Shown in pieces: positions 4,827 to 11,652 of a stretch of DNA of 64,000 bases. A program made the translations under genes and the position numbers. The stretch spans positions 1 to 64,000 of the forward strand of contig CALSPD010000002.1 of the NCBI GenBank assembly GCA_943788145.1, given 5' to 3'. How positions within the stretch are numbered: the first letter of the stretch is position 1; each line of letters opens with the position of its first letter. The notes below the pieces were generated by a model. The model worked only from the letters and a program-made list of their open reading frames with translations. It made no database searches and was not told the origin of the DNA. Origin of the DNA: an uncultured Flavobacteriales bacterium. GTDB taxonomy: Bacteria > Bacteroidota > Bacteroidia > Flavobacteriales_G > Salibacteraceae.

Positions 4827-5513
4827 TTAACATTGTACTTGACACGCACATCTTAAATTATGCTTATGCCTAATGACAAAGAACACCCCGTTGCTGTCCC
4901 AAACGTTGAGCATAGGAAAGTCGTTGTAATATCTGTCAGCCACCACCACCGAACCTTTTTCTAAAGGGATATTATACGCTCCTTTATTGTCGGCCACACT
5001 TCCTTCTGTAATATTCACATAAACAGGTAGTTTACCATCATATTCTAACAGGGTGTGCATTTTAACAGCTCCTTTTTTAGTACGAAATGTAGCCCAATCA
5101 AACATCGAAAGGCACAAACTAATGACCGTTGCGTCCAACAAGTAGACAGGTACCTTGATCTTCAGTTTGACTCGTTTCAAGGCAGCCTGCTGTCCTAAAC
5201 TCTGTAGGAGAGAATAATAGAGTTCTTTGAATAAATCAGCGTCCCTTCGCTTATTTTGATAACTGATACTCGACTTCGATGGAGCTTTAATAATGCCCAA
5301 ATGGTTGAGATTACCGGTGGCGGAGCGCAGCCCATTAGAAATATCTCGAACTGAGGTGCTCTTCGCAAAATGGCAGAAAAGCATGAAGACAAGGTGTGTC
5401 CAGCTATCAAAACCCTTACAACCCTTATCCGTCTGCTTTTGGGTTACTAATTTTTTGAAAATAGATCGATCAACCTTTTGGATGATCTGCGAAAACATTG
5501 TAATATTACCCAT
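4827..5513 (-). pseudogene. IS4-family transposase, N-terminal fragment
   Basis: The 228-codon frame opens with a DUF4372-type N-terminal domain (MGNITMFSQIIQKVD, then the GFDSWTHLVFMLFCHFAKS region). It continues into the RNase H-like catalytic core with the first two acidic residues, in VYLLDATVISL and VVVADRYYND. Homology appears to end around RHKHNLR; the last few residues before the stop and the roughly 40 bases up to the IS3 end do not look like transposase in the frames I examined. The third catalytic residue lies in the other fragment, so this piece cannot be active alone. Confidence 0.85.
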
Positions 5514-5682: not shown

Positions 5683-8103
5683 ATGAGACGTATTCTCCTG
5701 TTTTCAGCTATCCTCTGTTTGGGATACGCTACGATGGCACAATCGCCCTCGAAATTTAATTATCAAGCCGTTGCGCGTGATGCAGGCGGTGAATTAATTG
5801 CGGACAAAACCATTGCGGTTAAAGTCAGCATACTAATCGGTTCGGCCACAGGCACTGCCGCATACTCTGAAGAGCATGCGCCAACCACCAACGCATTTGG
5901 TCTTTTCAATTTCAAAATTGGCGAAGGAACCAATGGAACGGGTAGCCTGGGTGGAGTAGATTGGGGGACAAACACACACTTCATCAGTGTCGAGGTTGAC
6001 CCTGAGGGTGGCACAAACTACACCATTTCGAGCACTTCTGAATTGGTATCCGTGCCTTATGCTATGAACGCAAAGACAGTTGAGAACGATGCAGTTGATG
6101 ATGCCGATGCCGATCCAACAAATGAAATCCAAACGCTCAGTTTGACTGGAAATTCGCTAGATCTTTCAATAGGTGGTGGTTCAGTTGATTTAAGTGCTTA
6201 CGATCAATCTACCGCATTGGCTGCTGAAGTTGCCGCGCGTCAAGCCGACTCGGCTTCCTTCCAAGGACAAATTGATGATAACACTACAGATATAGGAACC
6301 AATGCAACAGACATTGCTACTAACGCAACGGACATTGCAACCAACACAACAGATATCTCGACCAATGCAACGGACATTGCAACGAATGCAACGGATATTG
6401 CTACCAATGCGACAGACATCGCAACAAACGCAACCGATATAGCCGCAAATGCAGATTCAATTGATCAAGTTGCGGCAAATCTAGCTACGCATGTTGCCGC
6501 TGATATGGATGTTGATTCTACAAACGAATTGATTACTGGTGCTGCCTTTGTAAACGACAGCAGCTTGGTGATCTACGAAGCTGGCGACAGCTTTATAGTT
6601 GACCTTTCTTCCTTGATCAATGATGACGATTGGGTTCGATCTGGCGACACCTTGTCAAACTCAGCCGACTCACTACTTTCTATTGGTGCTTCTGGTCCAA
6701 ACAATGTGAGCTATAAATTAAGTTTAAGCCCAGGTCAAAACCTTGGAGGCCTTTCCATCCGAACAGACTATAGCTCTAGCGATGATTGGGCTATCTACAA
6801 TATGGATAATTATCATCAAGGAACCATTCGTGGCATGTTAAACTATTTCTACGATGGAACTTCAGGTTCAACTGGACTGGAAAACCTTTCATATTACATG
6901 AACAGCACTTCCTATGGGGTGCGAAATAACATGTATTACAATACAGGAACGGATTACGGTGTTTATAACAACATCTATGATCCTAGTGGCTATGCCTATG
7001 GAATTTATAACCAAATTTCCTATGGTTATTACGGATACGGAACATACAATAACGTTTCTTACTCCGATTACAACGGATATGGAAACTATTCAAATGTGTA
7101 TAGCCCAGGAAGCAATGGGTACGGTGCCTATAATCAAGTTCAATACGCAGGAAGCTATGGCTATGGTACATACAATTACGTGTACGATCCAAGCGGCAAT
7201 GCTTATGGCTCATACAATCGAACTTACTATGGTTCTTATGGGTATGGCAGCTATAATCAAGCTTATTATCCCGATTATTATGGATTTGGGTCATATAATG
7301 AAACCGATGCCTCTAATGGATATGCCCAATATGGGTCGTACAGTGATGCCTACAATGGCAGTACGGGTACTTCGTATGGGTCGTACAATCAAGGACGAAG
7401 TTATGGAAACGGCTACGGTTCGTACAATTACGGATACTCTTATGATCCGTCTAGTGGGTACTCGGCATACGGGTCGTACAATTACGGTTATAAAGGCGGC
7501 TCATATTACGGCACAGCCTATGGTTCATACAACTATGCGTATGCTGGTGCTTCGTATTATGATTACGCCTATGGTTCTTACAATTACGCTGGAGGGGGTT
7601 ATTCCGGAAATTATGCAACCTATTCAAATGGAGTTACTTATTCTTCTGGAGGGTTCACAAGTTCTGACAGAAAATTGAAAAAGAACATTCGAGATTATGA
7701 AGGGGCAATTGGAGATTTAATGCAACTAAAGCCGCGTGTTTATGACTTCGATTTGGAGTCTTATCCAACCATGGGGTTGCCCGAAGAAGAGCAACTCGGC
7801 CTAGTGGCCCAAGAATTAGAGGCGGTTTTTCCAAATTTGATCAAGGAGACGCATAATCCTAAAATTAGAATGCCAGAAACACAAGCTAAGGAAGCAGGTT
7901 TTAAATATGTTGTGATAGAACCGGCAATGTATGATGAGGAAGGAAACTTAACTCAAGACGCAATGGTAGATGCTGGTGACGAGGTCGACTTCAAAGCCGT
8001 CAATTACACCGCTTTAATTCCAGTGCTAATTAAAGGTATTCAAGAGCAGCAAGCTCTCATCGAAGCGCTTGAAACACGCATTGAGCAGCTTGAAGCTGAA
8101 TAA
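5683..8103 (+). CDS. Secreted fibre-like protein with S74 (endosialidase-type) chaperone domain
   Basis: An 806-residue protein with a signal peptide (MRRILLFSAILCLGYATMAQ) and an N-terminal domain to about residue 130. A stalk-like run of heptads of the TNATDIA type covers residues about 200-258. A long Tyr/Gly/Ser/Asn-rich region of about 245 residues (410-655) has recurring YGSYN or YGxYN motifs. The C terminus is an intramolecular chaperone of the peptidase S74 family beginning near SSDRKLKKNIRDY (Ser660/661-Asp662), with the QLGLVAQELEAVFPNL core and a short coiled coil at the end. In phage tail spikes this domain trimerises the fibre and then cleaves itself off; a similar assembly step is inferred here. 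There is no T9SS signal on this protein; the small gene 11 bases downstream has one. Confidence 0.9.
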   Translation: MRRILLFSAILCLGYATMAQSPSKFNYQAVARDAGGELIADKTIAVKVSILIGSATGTAAYSEEHAPTTNAFGLFNFKIGEGTNGTGSLGGVDWGTNTHFISVEVDPEGGTNYTISSTSELVSVPYAMNAKTVENDAVDDADADPTNEIQTLSLTGNSLDLSIGGGSVDLSAYDQSTALAAEVAARQADSASFQGQIDDNTTDIGTNATDIATNATDIATNTTDISTNATDIATNATDIATNATDIATNATDIAANADSIDQVAANLATHVAADMDVDSTNELITGAAFVNDSSLVIYEAGDSFIVDLSSLINDDDWVRSGDTLSNSADSLLSIGASGPNNVSYKLSLSPGQNLGGLSIRTDYSSSDDWAIYNMDNYHQGTIRGMLNYFYDGTSGSTGLENLSYYMNSTSYGVRNNMYYNTGTDYGVYNNIYDPSGYAYGIYNQISYGYYGYGTYNNVSYSDYNGYGNYSNVYSPGSNGYGAYNQVQYAGSYGYGTYNYVYDPSGNAYGSYNRTYYGSYGYGSYNQAYYPDYYGFGSYNETDASNGYAQYGSYSDAYNGSTGTSYGSYNQGRSYGNGYGSYNYGYSYDPSSGYSAYGSYNYGYKGGSYYGTAYGSYNYAYAGASYYDYAYGSYNYAGGGYSGNYATYSNGVTYSSGGFTSSDRKLKKNIRDYEGAIGDLMQLKPRVYDFDLESYPTMGLPEEEQLGLVAQELEAVFPNLIKETHNPKIRMPETQAKEAGFKYVVIEPAMYDEEGNLTQDAMVDAGDEVDFKAVNYTALIPVLIKGIQEQQALIEALETRIEQLEAE
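6280..6456 (+). repeat. 21-bp coding repeats (TNATDIA heptads)
   Basis: About eight tandem copies of a 21-base unit encode the heptad T-N-A-T-D-I-A inside the S74 fibre protein. Codons for the same residues vary (gcaaca, gcgaca, gcaacg), so the repeat is kept at protein level more than at DNA level. The regular Ile/Ala spacing fits a trimeric stalk. Confidence 0.85.
6905..7640 (+). repeat. Tyr/Gly/Asn-rich degenerate coding repeats (YGxYN)
   Basis: Roughly 15 copies of a unit of about 15-18 codons centred on YG-[STIAV]-YN, with variable linkers such as DPSGNA and GSYGYG. Composition is almost entirely Tyr, Gly, Ser, Asn and Ala. Copies toward the C-terminal side are more uniform (YGSYNYGY), suggesting recent local expansion. 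Confidence 0.85.
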
Positions 8104-9985: not shown

Positions 9986-10021
9986 TGAAACTTTCAATTA
10001 TTTTCGCGCACTCAATTCACC

Positions 10022-10070
10022 TGCCCAGGTGGTCCCAACTAATAGTCGGGATAAACTCCACCACTGGGCA
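10022..10070. other. Hairpin containing a copy of the tRNA-Leu 5' end
   Basis: TGCCCAG-GTGG at 10022-10032 can pair with CCAC-CACTGGGCA at 10058-10070, enclosing a smaller TCCC/GGGA stem. The ten bases GCCCAGGTGG at 10023-10032 are identical to the first ten bases of the tRNA-Leu gene 60 bases downstream, so this looks like a fragment of a second tRNA copy. Confidence 0.5.
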
Positions 10071-10082
10071 ATTGAAATGAAC

Positions 10083-10164
10083 GCCCAGGTGGCGGAATTG
10101 GTAGACGCGCTGGTCTCAAACACCAGTTTCTTCGGAAGTACCGGTTCGACCCCGGTCCTGGGTA
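10083..10164 (+). tRNA. tRNA-Leu (anticodon CAA)
   Basis: A class II tRNA that folds completely. The acceptor GCCCAGG (10083-10089) pairs with CCTGGGT (10157-10163, a G-U pair at the end), with discriminator A. The anticodon stem CTGGT/ACCAG encloses the loop CTCAAAC, anticodon CAA, reading UUG. There is a long variable arm closed by a UUCG loop, and a T arm ACCGG-TTCGACC-CCGGT at 10140-10156. CCA is not encoded, as is common in this phylum. It is followed after about 20 bases by an intrinsic terminator. Confidence 0.95.
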
Positions 10165-10184
10165 CGAGTGCAACGAGTGCACAG

Positions 10185-10214
10185 AAAGGCTAGCCGTGAG
10201 GCTGGCCTTTTTTT
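10185..10214 (+). terminator. Intrinsic terminator of tRNA-Leu
   Basis: AAAGGCTAGCC at 10185-10195, a GTGA loop, and GGCTGGCCTTT at 10200-10210 (one wobble pair), followed by T residues. Confidence 0.88.
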
Positions 10215-10301
10215 GTTTGGGACAAACAAATCAAGGGGAGAGGTTTATGCCGCTGTATTTTTTCAAGGGATGTAAGGCCGTAGAAAAAAACAAGCGGTAA
10301 A

Positions 10302-10315
10302 CCCGGTCCTGGGTA
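10302..10315 (+). other. tRNA-Leu 3'-end fragment, copy 2
   Basis: CCCGGTCCTGGGTA is a 14-base exact match to the last 14 bases of the tRNA-Leu gene (10151-10164), covering half of the T stem, the acceptor strand and the discriminator. No tRNA body precedes it. A terminator follows within 10 bases, as in the intact gene. Confidence 0.7.
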
Positions 10316-10321
10316 AATTTG

Positions 10322-10353
10322 AAAAAAGACTCACTGAAAAGTGGGTCTTTTTT
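10322..10353 (+). terminator. Second tandem intrinsic terminator
   Basis: AAAAAAGACTCACT at 10322-10335, a GAAA loop, and AGTGGGTCTTTTTT at 10340-10353 (one wobble). It follows the second tRNA-Leu fragment and has no gene of its own. Confidence 0.85.
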
Positions 10354-10426
10354 GTTATTTGTTCCGTCTTGAAATAAGGTGATACAAATTCCACAATTAA
10401 TGAAAATATCCTACTTCTGAGAAACT

Positions 10427-10470
10427 AGTACCGGTTCGTCCCGATAGCTATCGGGACCGGTCCTGGGTAC
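10427..10470 (+). other. tRNA-Leu 3'-end fragment, copy 3, with a palindrome in its T loop
   Basis: AGTACCGGTTCG at 10427-10438 matches 10137-10148 of the tRNA gene, and CCGGTCCTGGGTAC at 10457-10470 matches 10152-10165. Between them, in the T loop, sits the perfect 18-bp palindrome TCCCGATAGCTATCGGGA (10439-10456). The fragment thus keeps the T arm and acceptor 3' strand but carries a hairpin-forming insertion. Confidence 0.7.
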
Positions 10471-10481
10471 ATTTAAAAATT

Positions 10482-10510
10482 AAGGCTTGCCTATCGGTAA
10501 GCCTTTTTTT
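10482..10510 (+). terminator. Third tandem intrinsic terminator
   Basis: AAGGCTTGCC at 10482-10491, a TATC loop, and GGTAAGCCTT at 10496-10505 (one wobble), followed by a T run. It follows the third tRNA-Leu fragment. From here to the prs promoter (about 10511-10667) I see only a minor hairpin at 10572-10588 and no gene. Confidence 0.85.
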
Positions 10511-10719: not shown

Positions 10720-11652
10720 ATGTCCAAAGAAGTAAAAATTTGTGCCGGTACAGCCACTATGGTTTTGGGAGAGAAAATCGCCCAGAGCTACGGCATCAAT
10801 TTGGCCAACGTAAACATACTGCGGTTTAGCGATGGCGAATTTCAGCCTTCGTTTGAAGAGACGGTGCGCGGTGCCGATGTTTTTATCATCCAAAGCACCA
10901 ATCCTCCTGGCGACAACTTAATGGAGCTATTGCAAATGGTGGATGCTGCGAAACGCGCTTCAGCTAGACACATCATCGCTGTCATGCCTTACTATGGATA
11001 TGCTCGACAAGATCGGAAGGACAAACCGAGGGTTTCCATTGGCGCGAAACTGGTAGCCAACTTGCTTGGAGCTGCTGGAGTTACGCGCATAATGACCATG
11101 GATTTACATGCCGATCAGATTCAAGGATTTTTTGAAGTTCCCGTAGATCACTTGTTTGCATCGAGTATTTTTCTTCCTTATTTGCAAGGCCTGAATTTGC
11201 CTGACCTTGTAATGGCCGCGCCAGACACAGGAGGCACGAAGCGCGCCAATGCTTATGCCAAACACTTGAACTGCGACTTAGCTATTTGCTACAAGCAACG
11301 AAAGGTGGCGAATCAAATTGAATCTATGACGGTGATTGGCGATGTAGAAGGTAAGGACATCGTTATTGTTGATGATCTCATTGACACAGCCGGAACCCTA
11401 ACCAAGTCCGCTACTATGATGATGGAGCAGGGAGCTAAATCCGTTCGAGCCATCATTACGCATCCTGTTTTGAGCGGTCCAGCATACGATAGAATAAATG
11501 ACTCGGTATTGACTGAATTGGTAGTCACAGACACCATTCCGTTGAGGTATGAGTCACCAAAAATAAAAGTACTTAGCGTGGCAGATATTTTTGCGAGCAC
11601 CATGCGAAGTATTGTTAGTTACGAATCAATAAGCTCGCAATTCATTATTTAA
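10720..11652 (+). CDS. prs: Ribose-phosphate pyrophosphokinase
   Basis: Makes PRPP from ribose 5-phosphate and ATP, feeding purine, pyrimidine, His, Trp and NAD synthesis. The 310-residue length is standard. Visible motifs are FSDGEFQPSFEETVRG and PYYGYARQDRKDKPR near the ATP site, the metal/regulatory segment MDLHADQIQGFF, the catalytic flexible loop around CYKQRKVAN, and the PRPP-binding loop IVIVDDLIDTAGTLTKSA. It heads a probable operon with rplY and pth (gaps of 16 and 11 bases), an arrangement I recall from other Flavobacteriia. Confidence 0.97.
   Translation: MSKEVKICAGTATMVLGEKIAQSYGINLANVNILRFSDGEFQPSFEETVRGADVFIIQSTNPPGDNLMELLQMVDAAKRASARHIIAVMPYYGYARQDRKDKPRVSIGAKLVANLLGAAGVTRIMTMDLHADQIQGFFEVPVDHLFASSIFLPYLQGLNLPDLVMAAPDTGGTKRANAYAKHLNCDLAICYKQRKVANQIESMTVIGDVEGKDIVIVDDLIDTAGTLTKSATMMMEQGAKSVRAIITHPVLSGPAYDRINDSVLTELVVTDTIPLRYESPKIKVLSVADIFASTMRSIVSYESISSQFII

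Follow-up and report, generated by a model that had tools for sequence, protein, structure and literature searches.

The first 64,000 nucleotides of a contig from an uncultured Flavobacteriales bacterium (GenBank assembly GCA_943788145.1, contig CALSPD010000002.1, forward strand; herein referred to as the window) contain a tRNA-Leu(CAA) gene surrounded by three partial copies of itself. The gene was identified by ARAGORN and by the Rfam tRNA model RF00005 (54.1 bits, match at 10083–10164). An exact copy of its 5′ end, GCCCAGGTGG, is located upstream. Downstream, an exact copy of its 3′ end, CCCGGTCCTGGGTA, is followed by a second 3′ copy in two exact pieces, AGTACCGGTTCG and CCGGTCCTGGGTAC. 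These fragments are probably footprints, lacking the nuclease gene, of elements that target tRNA genes and were observed mostly in Bacteroidota; a full element of this family would consist of one small GIY-YIG nuclease gene (about 90 codons) and a copy of half a tRNA gene.

A preliminary description of this DNA had placed the fragments at 10023–10032, 10302–10315, and 10427–10470, and at all three sites exact copies were confirmed. It had also considered ordered exact matches unlikely to arise by chance, which agrees with the simulations: when the 355 downstream bases were simulated 5000 times with a first-order Markov model, one or more exact 12-base matches arose in 6 simulations and three or more in none. 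The upstream 10-mer was present in 1 of 5000 Markov versions. Outside this region, neither strand of the window contains any 12-mer of the tRNA-Leu gene. The hairpin terminators described for the intact tRNA and for each 3′ copy were recovered by a scan as terminator-like hairpins (Table 1). Within a 1.5-kb stretch, both strands together contain 7 terminator-like sites, some of which may be spurious, against a shuffle mean of 1.5. One feature had been missed: a perfect palindrome of 18 base pairs (bp), TCCCGATAGCTATCGGGA, splits the last copy and stands in place of exactly three T-loop bases, so the window contains a half copy of the adjacent tRNA interrupted by a palindrome.

The two other fragments have surroundings of their own, delimited by eye. 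Ahead of the first downstream copy are GGGGAGAGGTTTA and a long imperfect hairpin. The upstream copy continues into an imperfect palindrome and then TAAACTCC. The latter motif approximates the reverse complement of GGGGAGAGGTTTA, and the upstream footprint looks like a mirror image of downstream footprint 1. A similar arrangement was seen by eye 5′ of tRNA-Leu at two other loci (L025 and L026). Downstream footprint 2 is identical in tRNA, T-loop position, and palindrome to two loci that contain the nuclease gene (L022 and L024).

Table 1. Features around the tRNA-Leu(CAA) gene of the window. ORF, open reading frame.
Feature	Position	Strand	Basis
Upstream footprint: 10 tRNA bases (10023–10032), imperfect palindrome TCCCAACTAATAGTCGGGA (10033–10051), TAAACTCC (10052–10059), and ACCACTGGGCA, complementary to the start	10023..10070	+	sequence
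Intact tRNA-Leu(CAA), the target	10083..10165	+	ARAGORN; Rfam RF00005, 54.1 bits
Terminator-like hairpin of the intact tRNA	10183..10212	+	terminator scan
Downstream footprint 1: GGGGAGAGGTTTA and long imperfect hairpin (together 10235–10299, hairpin 10248–10299), tRNA 3′-end copy (10302–10315)	10235..10315	+	sequence
Terminator-like hairpin of footprint 1	10322..10353	+	terminator scan
Downstream footprint 2: T-arm and acceptor copy (10427–10438, 10457–10470) with TCCCGATAGCTATCGGGA between (10439–10456)	10427..10470	+	sequence
Terminator-like hairpin of footprint 2	10482..10505	+	terminator scan
ORF of 310 amino acids, which we take to be prs (phosphoribosyl pyrophosphate synthetase); anchor for locus comparison in relatives	10720..11652	+	ORF; relatives via tblastn

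A search of this interval in 60 genomes demonstrated that palindrome-bearing (tagged) T-arm copies recur beside tRNA-Leu in other genera. At L022, the order is tRNA-Leu, terminator, tagged T-arm copy, nuclease gene, second tagged copy, and copied terminator. At L024, tRNA-Leu is followed by the nuclease gene and a tagged copy starting at the anticodon, and an upstream 5′ copy has the same palindrome in its D-loop. At least five tandem units of nuclease gene plus tagged tRNA-Leu copy, mostly about 409 bp apart, were found at L021 (5700–7765), in an array that runs off the contig end, with no tRNA on the stretch examined. In genome G016, tagged T-arm copies form a series with a spacing of about 409 bp, and a tagged copy without the nuclease gene is present at L023. 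The same plan was found at tRNA-Leu(UAA) and tRNA-Met. A tRNA-Pro gene has the nuclease gene upstream together with a 5′-half copy, and a tRNA-His gene has a nuclease-less 5′ copy. In total, copies beside the same nuclease family were found for tRNAs of ten amino acids. Tandem 5′-half copies with D-arm palindromes, for which no nuclease gene was seen, were also observed at L081 (1480–1687) and L288, upstream of tRNA-Leu(GAG); they occur as 74-bp units at a contig end of G043 and as two copies in G005.

The nuclease is a protein of about 90 amino acids, and its GIY-YIG domain (Pfam: PF01541) scored above the Pfam cut-off in three of three proteins. Residues Y5, Y16, G18, R26, H30, and E64, which we take to be the GIY-YIG catalytic residues, are invariant across the 20 sequences of alignment A2 (from the 30 rows initially chosen, two with a stop and eight others were left out). 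Matches to solved structures are weak, with E-values of 0.044 for the best one, a ribosome factor, 0.49 for I-TevI, and 0.9 for SLX1. Matches to NCBIfam intron endonucleases were found in two of three proteins, only below the cut-off.

Association of the nuclease genes with tRNAs was analyzed in two sets. Set 1 comprises 100 regions around the short-frame GIY-YIG matches listed for the 60 genomes, some matches lying outside the set, and contains 112 small GIY-YIG ORFs, among them tandem copies and, in a few cases, parts of a single gene. For set 2, four tRNA-Leu-associated nucleases (alignment A1) served as the query of a protein-based scan covering one genome per species; 194 stretches matched, 129 were confirmed, and the best 80 were used, representing 79 distinct loci. 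Three of these loci had been found earlier (L209, L211, and L212 are L022, L021, and L024, respectively), and L213 is nearly identical to L212. As named, the loci from these best 80 of 129 belong to Bacteroidota (76), Ignavibacteriales (two), and Rickettsiales (one).

In set 1, 48 ORF-tRNA pairs were found in the 54,770 bp within 250 bp of the ORFs (8.76 per 10 kb), against 3 pairs in 719,895 bp at distances of 2–6 kb. A tRNA gene lies less than 600 bp from 46 of the 112 ORFs, representing 42 distinct tRNAs, and shares the strand of the ORF in all 46 cases. For set 2, 65 tRNAs were found in 38,060 bp within 250 bp, against a single one in 204,258 bp at 1–2.5 kb. A tRNA is present within 600 bp at 63 of the 79 loci, again always on the same strand (63/63). 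The tRNAs of set 2 are specific for Asn (23), Met (16), Leu (14), Phe (5), Arg (3), Val (1), and Thr (1).

Beyond the nuclease gene, a partial copy of the locus's own tRNA scoring above the 99th percentile of decoys was found at 29 of 42 loci in set 1 (decoys, 3/336) and at 45 of 63 loci in set 2 (decoys, 4/504); one of the 29 copies, at L126, is a full second tRNA. The copied half depends on the side of the tRNA. Among the 44 downstream cases of set 2, the copy includes only the 3′ end in 27, neither end in 10, and both ends in 1, with no copy in 6. In 16 of the 19 upstream cases, the copy retains the 5′ end but lacks the 3′ end, and in the other 3 there is no copy. Of 43 downstream cases in set 2, 19 include a copy of the tRNA's 3′ flank as well.

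Inserts between collinear pieces of the tRNA copies are palindromic in 29 of 42 cases (50 tRNA loci examined; shuffles, 1.7%) and, for set 2, in 42 of 51 cases (63 loci examined; shuffles, 1.1%). Of the set 2 inserts, 34 of 51 are 18-mers that approximate CCCGATAGCTATCGGG and are extended by one paired base on either side, regardless of the tRNA. These 18-mers are located in the D-loop, anticodon loop, variable region, or T-loop, where they take the place of 3–5 bases (6 in L278), so that 3–6 bases are replaced by the main palindrome type; other types replace none or more. Other nuclease groups are accompanied by other palindromes, namely TCCGCC...GGCGGA at tRNA-Met and TCCCCAA...TTGGGGA at tRNA-Asp. 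Exact copies of TCCCGATAGCTATCGGGA number 4 in the window genome and 0–17 across the 60 genomes, with none in 49 of them. A high-copy genome repeat formed by the bare palindrome was considered and rejected on the count in the window genome. TCCCGATAGCTATCGGGA is also frequent in the loops of terminator-like or other hairpins (L030:4398, L040:1501, L077:1501, and others).

Both the tRNA and the palindrome are distributed non-randomly on the nuclease trees, which are based on about 95 columns, contain many unresolved forks, and are rooted at the midpoint. The amino-acid identity of the tRNA requires 18 changes on the first tree (40 loci), against a mean of 29.0 and a minimum of 24 after shuffling. 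On a second tree of 66 nucleases it requires 17 changes against 39.5 (minimum 34). Palindrome type on this second tree requires 5 changes against 11.7 (shuffled minimum 9), the types having been assigned by regular expression in set 1, where some were missed (e.g., L125), and by eye in set 2 (48 of 51 loci). The tRNA-Met rows alone include 13 of one palindrome type and 3 of the other, with 1 change. By this comparison, nuclease lineages follow the identity of the tRNA, and palindrome types follow the lineage of the nuclease.

Within the window genome (G000), palindrome-bearing copies were found at three tRNAs: tRNA-Leu, tRNA-Met, and tRNA-Arg. The tRNA-Met gene (L303) has two downstream copies, with no nuclease ORF seen, and the first of them contains a TCCGCC-type and a CCCGATAGCTATCGGG palindrome plus a copied terminator. 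The tRNA-Arg gene has a 5′ copy around TCCGCCAGCTGGCGGA.

The tRNA-Leu(CAA) gene was seen in 8 of the 12 genus mates examined. No footprints were found beside it in five of these 8 (G001, G005, G007, G010, and G011), as judged by a fragment test, which overlooks diverged copies (those at L023 and L026 were missed by it and found by eye), and by reading 80 bases upstream and 260 downstream. A single tagged T-arm copy resembling footprint 2 is present in G003, a copy of the footprint 1 type in G004, and a diverged copy of this type plus an upstream copy in G012. Footprints at this tRNA are nuclease-less in these three genomes as in the window. Footprint 2 of the window is absent from the loci of G004, G012, and G015, which have the same tRNA version. 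G009 has a nuclease close to alignment A1 (E-value 9e-23) at L314, and after it comes a T-arm copy with a palindrome, apparently the 3′ end of a tRNA-Leu; the tRNA itself would lie past the contig end. Judged from these assemblies, the presence of footprints is patchy in the genus. The preliminary description had regarded relatives without the tRNA, or fragments forming a repeat family away from tRNAs, as contrary to its reading. The relatives do have the tRNA, with or without copies, and no such family was found, the bare palindrome alone occurring elsewhere.

A motif related to GGGGAGAGGTTTA, GGAGAAGTTTATCCC, has 4 exact matches in the 60 genomes and none in the window genome. All four sites are directly 3′ of a tRNA (Leu-GAG, Leu-CAG, Lys, and Leu-CAA), and each is followed by a palindrome-like stretch and a copy of the 3′ end of the same tRNA. 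Footprint 1 is assigned to a second miniature type, marked by the GGAGAAGTTTATCCC-related motif. That GGAGAAGTTTATCCC is a dispersed repeat was rejected, with four of four matches located at tRNAs.

Two versions of tRNA-Leu(CAA) were observed in the genus (window, L023, L189, L191, L192, L196, and L197). The gene precedes prs in the lineage of the window and is apparently divergent from prs in most others; an allele replacement in the genus is possible. In G003 (L023), the T-stem of the intact tRNA is GTGGG/CCCAC and that of the tagged copy is GCGGG/CCCGC, as in several genus mates, and this copy may preserve an older tRNA sequence.

The architecture, the rules of strand and polarity, the association of palindrome with nuclease lineage, the patchy presence in the genus, and the tagged copies beside three tRNAs of the window genome, all seen by comparison of genomes, suggest cleavage and homing-like movement in which the palindrome would have a role. 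The element behaves as if it entered a tRNA gene and left one intact tRNA. A downstream element would have the displaced 3′ half past its nuclease gene, sometimes with a copied terminator, and an upstream element would leave the displaced 5′ half behind. Within the displaced half, the lineage-matched palindrome would take the place of a few bases within the D-, anticodon-, variable-, or T-loop or next to it. Since the palindrome follows the nuclease, it is suggested to mark the nuclease's own site; it could stop re-cutting of the displaced half and shorten the homology available for recombination that deletes the element. Short footprints like the three in the window would arise if the nuclease gene were lost or if an element moved without it. 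Entry with regeneration of one half would explain the intact tRNA, the position of the nuclease gene between tRNA and copy, the polarity of the copies, the existence of both orientations, and the copied terminators.

Several observations weigh against this interpretation. No small-type GIY-YIG gene was found at the window locus or in the window genome (86.6% complete), whose two GIY-YIG domains sit in frames of 622 and 461 amino acids with no match to alignment A1. Because of this absence, the locus is tied to the nuclease family by shared anatomy, and it is classified as nuclease-less footprints rather than as a full element. Neither footprint 1 nor the upstream footprint contains a perfect palindrome. 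Fragments within 500 bp were found for 3 of the 29 tRNAs of the window genome against 6 of 174 decoys, an excess that is weak on its own; the palindrome between the pieces is the persuasive part. No tRNA lies within 600 bp of 66 of the 112 ORFs in set 1 and of 16 of the 79 loci in set 2, some of which are at contig ends, and a copy above the decoy threshold is missing at 13 of 42 and 18 of 63 nuclease-tRNA loci, respectively. The counts of palindromic inserts are not independent, with several inserts per locus, and 6 of the 42 first counted come from the loci that prompted the palindrome test (window, L022, L024, and L074). The test of palindrome type is lopsided: similarity to type-A nucleases was the criterion for choosing set 2, and 54 of 66 rows are accordingly of type A. 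Upstream or downstream position, which requires 7 changes on the tree against 9.0 after shuffling (minimum 5), gives no clear signal. TCCCGATAGCTATCGGGA was also found away from tRNAs and therefore may move on its own. Finally, the displaced half is interrupted by the palindrome, yet an intact tRNA remains beside the element; this tRNA should stay cuttable, which plain homing leaves unexplained.

The strongest alternative, although we regard it as rather unlikely, takes the palindrome itself as the mobile unit, similar to repetitive extragenic palindromic (REP) sequences. The GIY-YIG protein would recognize the hairpin of the palindrome and move it into the loops of hairpin-forming DNA, and tRNA copies would tolerate such insertions since an intact copy remains. 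The constancy of the main palindrome in one nuclease lineage, whatever the tRNA, is consistent with this, as are the two palindromes apparently present within one copy at L303 and at some set 2 loci (L246, L283, L276, and L287). Additionally, a flanking stem of at least 5 bp was found at 12 of 26 TCCCGATAGCTATCGGGA sites, against 6.5–9.6% in controls, and at 8 of the 19 sites outside tRNA copies (two of these eight, L040 and L041, are near-duplicates). Small GIY-YIG ORFs without tRNAs are embedded in repeats: repeats common to both 300-bp flanks were found for 34 of 60 such ORFs, a few of which are members of tRNA-type arrays, against 4 of 310 shifted controls. But the location of the nuclease between the intact tRNA and the copy, the polarity of the half genes, and the copied terminators are left unexplained, and exact copies are few (4 in the window genome and at most 17 in any of the 60 genomes).

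In a nuclease tree that includes ORFs without tRNAs, one branch of 44 rows (support 88, midpoint root) contains exclusively ORFs without tRNAs, and the remaining 64 rows contain all the tRNA-associated ORFs. Many small GIY-YIG ORFs at L089–L188 with no tRNA within 600 bp have palindromic repeats in their flanks, e.g., ATGCTGAACTTGTTTCAGCAT and CGTCATTCCTGCGAAAGCAGGAATC. Some of the palindromic repeats around this neighboring nuclease lineage begin with CGTC. REPs of the CGTC type were reported in 2013 to have no dedicated transposase (PMC3733652), and it is possible that the neighboring lineage mobilizes them.

A decaying tandem array of tRNA-Leu genes, offered by the preliminary description as an equally suitable origin, now seems improbable. 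Duplicated genes with their terminators would have lost their bodies, and palindromes would have drifted or been inserted into the dead copies. This would fit the terminator-like hairpin at every 3′ copy, the existence of tandem units, and the copying of the tRNA 3′ flank. It does not account for copies that are mostly half genes of fixed polarity, for a palindrome type that tracks nuclease lineage, or for recurrence at tRNAs of ten amino acids beside the same nuclease family. A function as small RNAs, in which tRNA-end mimics with terminators would act as, e.g., sponges or regulators, is quite improbable: the hairpin ending each 3′ copy and the similar upstream and downstream copies at L025 and L026 would suit it, but presence in the genus is patchy. 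Such a role would not exclude a mobile origin. The preliminary view of a mobile, recombination-active tRNA site still looks right, but its version with attachment-site scars of elements integrated by a tyrosine integrase was rejected as hardly credible, although 3′ tRNA-end repeats are the classic mark of such events, since none of the 10 listed integrase matches of the genome is on the window contig, the copies carry palindromes and include 5′ as well as 3′ halves, and the units at related loci, about 400 bp long, include a GIY-YIG gene.

Elsewhere in the window, an ORF of 228 amino acids (4827–5513, minus strand) resembles part of an insertion sequence transposase. Another ORF of 806 amino acids (5683–8103, plus strand) has long GYGxYNxxY repeats and a tail that looks like an endosialidase chaperone.

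The element family suggests a likely function for small GIY-YIG genes of a group that is common in Bacteroidota and would explain partial tRNA copies otherwise read as integrase scars or pseudogenes. It would also provide a natural collection of nucleases, grouped by the tRNA they target, and the question of the transposase of CGTC-type REPs may become testable in the neighboring lineage found among palindromic repeats. Tentatively, and with somewhat less than even confidence, we propose a distinct class of bacterial mobile elements: minimal GIY-YIG nucleases that parasitize tRNA genes, each lineage having its own tRNA and palindrome, with the element rebuilding the tRNA half that it pushes aside and tagging the displaced one with the palindrome in place of a loop. 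The neighboring repeat-embedded lineage may mobilize some REP families, so that one nuclease family would serve both systems. Open-access titles and abstract openings, partly covered and with subscription papers and preprints outside their scope, contained no description of such an element.

Among known systems, fungal mitochondrial mobile ORFs of the Allomyces atp6 type bring a replacement gene end. They resemble the tRNA element in that they insert into a gene whose displaced end stays in place while a supplied copy maintains its function, but they affect protein genes of organelles, and we know of no nuclease-matched palindrome in them. Genomic islands integrating into tRNA genes share the target and leave 3′-end copies. 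Unlike the tRNA element, they have a tyrosine integrase and large cargo, and neither a palindrome nor a 5′-half mode is known to us. For the Rickettsia palindromic elements, we are aware of no tie to a nuclease or to half tRNA copies. Their likeness to the tRNA element is that palindromes are inserted in genes. The Rickettsia elements are named in an article on REP sequences (PMC3733652).

REP sequences with their REP-associated tyrosine transposases (RAYTs), as presented in the same article, also combine a nuclease-family gene with short palindromes that are in addition dispersed (PMC3733652). However, RAYT is a tyrosine (HUH) transposase and the protein described here is a GIY-YIG nuclease, and REPs are high-copy and extragenic, whereas the palindromes here are low-copy (0–17 exact copies in the 60 genomes) and located inside tRNA copies. 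Common to both is a palindrome matched to the protein lineage (here, 5 changes against 11.7, with 54 of 66 rows of one type and set 2 typed by eye). The defining transposase and copy number of REP systems are not matched by the tRNA element.

The closest parallel is SegB, a free-standing GIY-YIG homing endonuclease of T-even phages, which is enriched beside tRNA genes of many isotypes and has been connected with the amplification of a tRNA-bearing segment (PMC13096335). Both are stand-alone GIY-YIG nucleases adjoining tRNA genes. A term search of the main text of that article found no palindromes or partial tRNAs (PMC13096335). Unlike SegB, which was studied in phage genomes, the family described here belongs to bacterial genomes and has proteins of about 90 amino acids, a palindrome-tagged half tRNA, and lineages tied to tRNA identity. 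The features of homing endonucleases found here are the GIY-YIG residues and a gene at its target (within 600 bp of a tRNA for 46 of the 112 ORFs and at 63 of the 79 loci, always on the same strand). By analogy, the element would work most like a free-standing homing endonuclease element.

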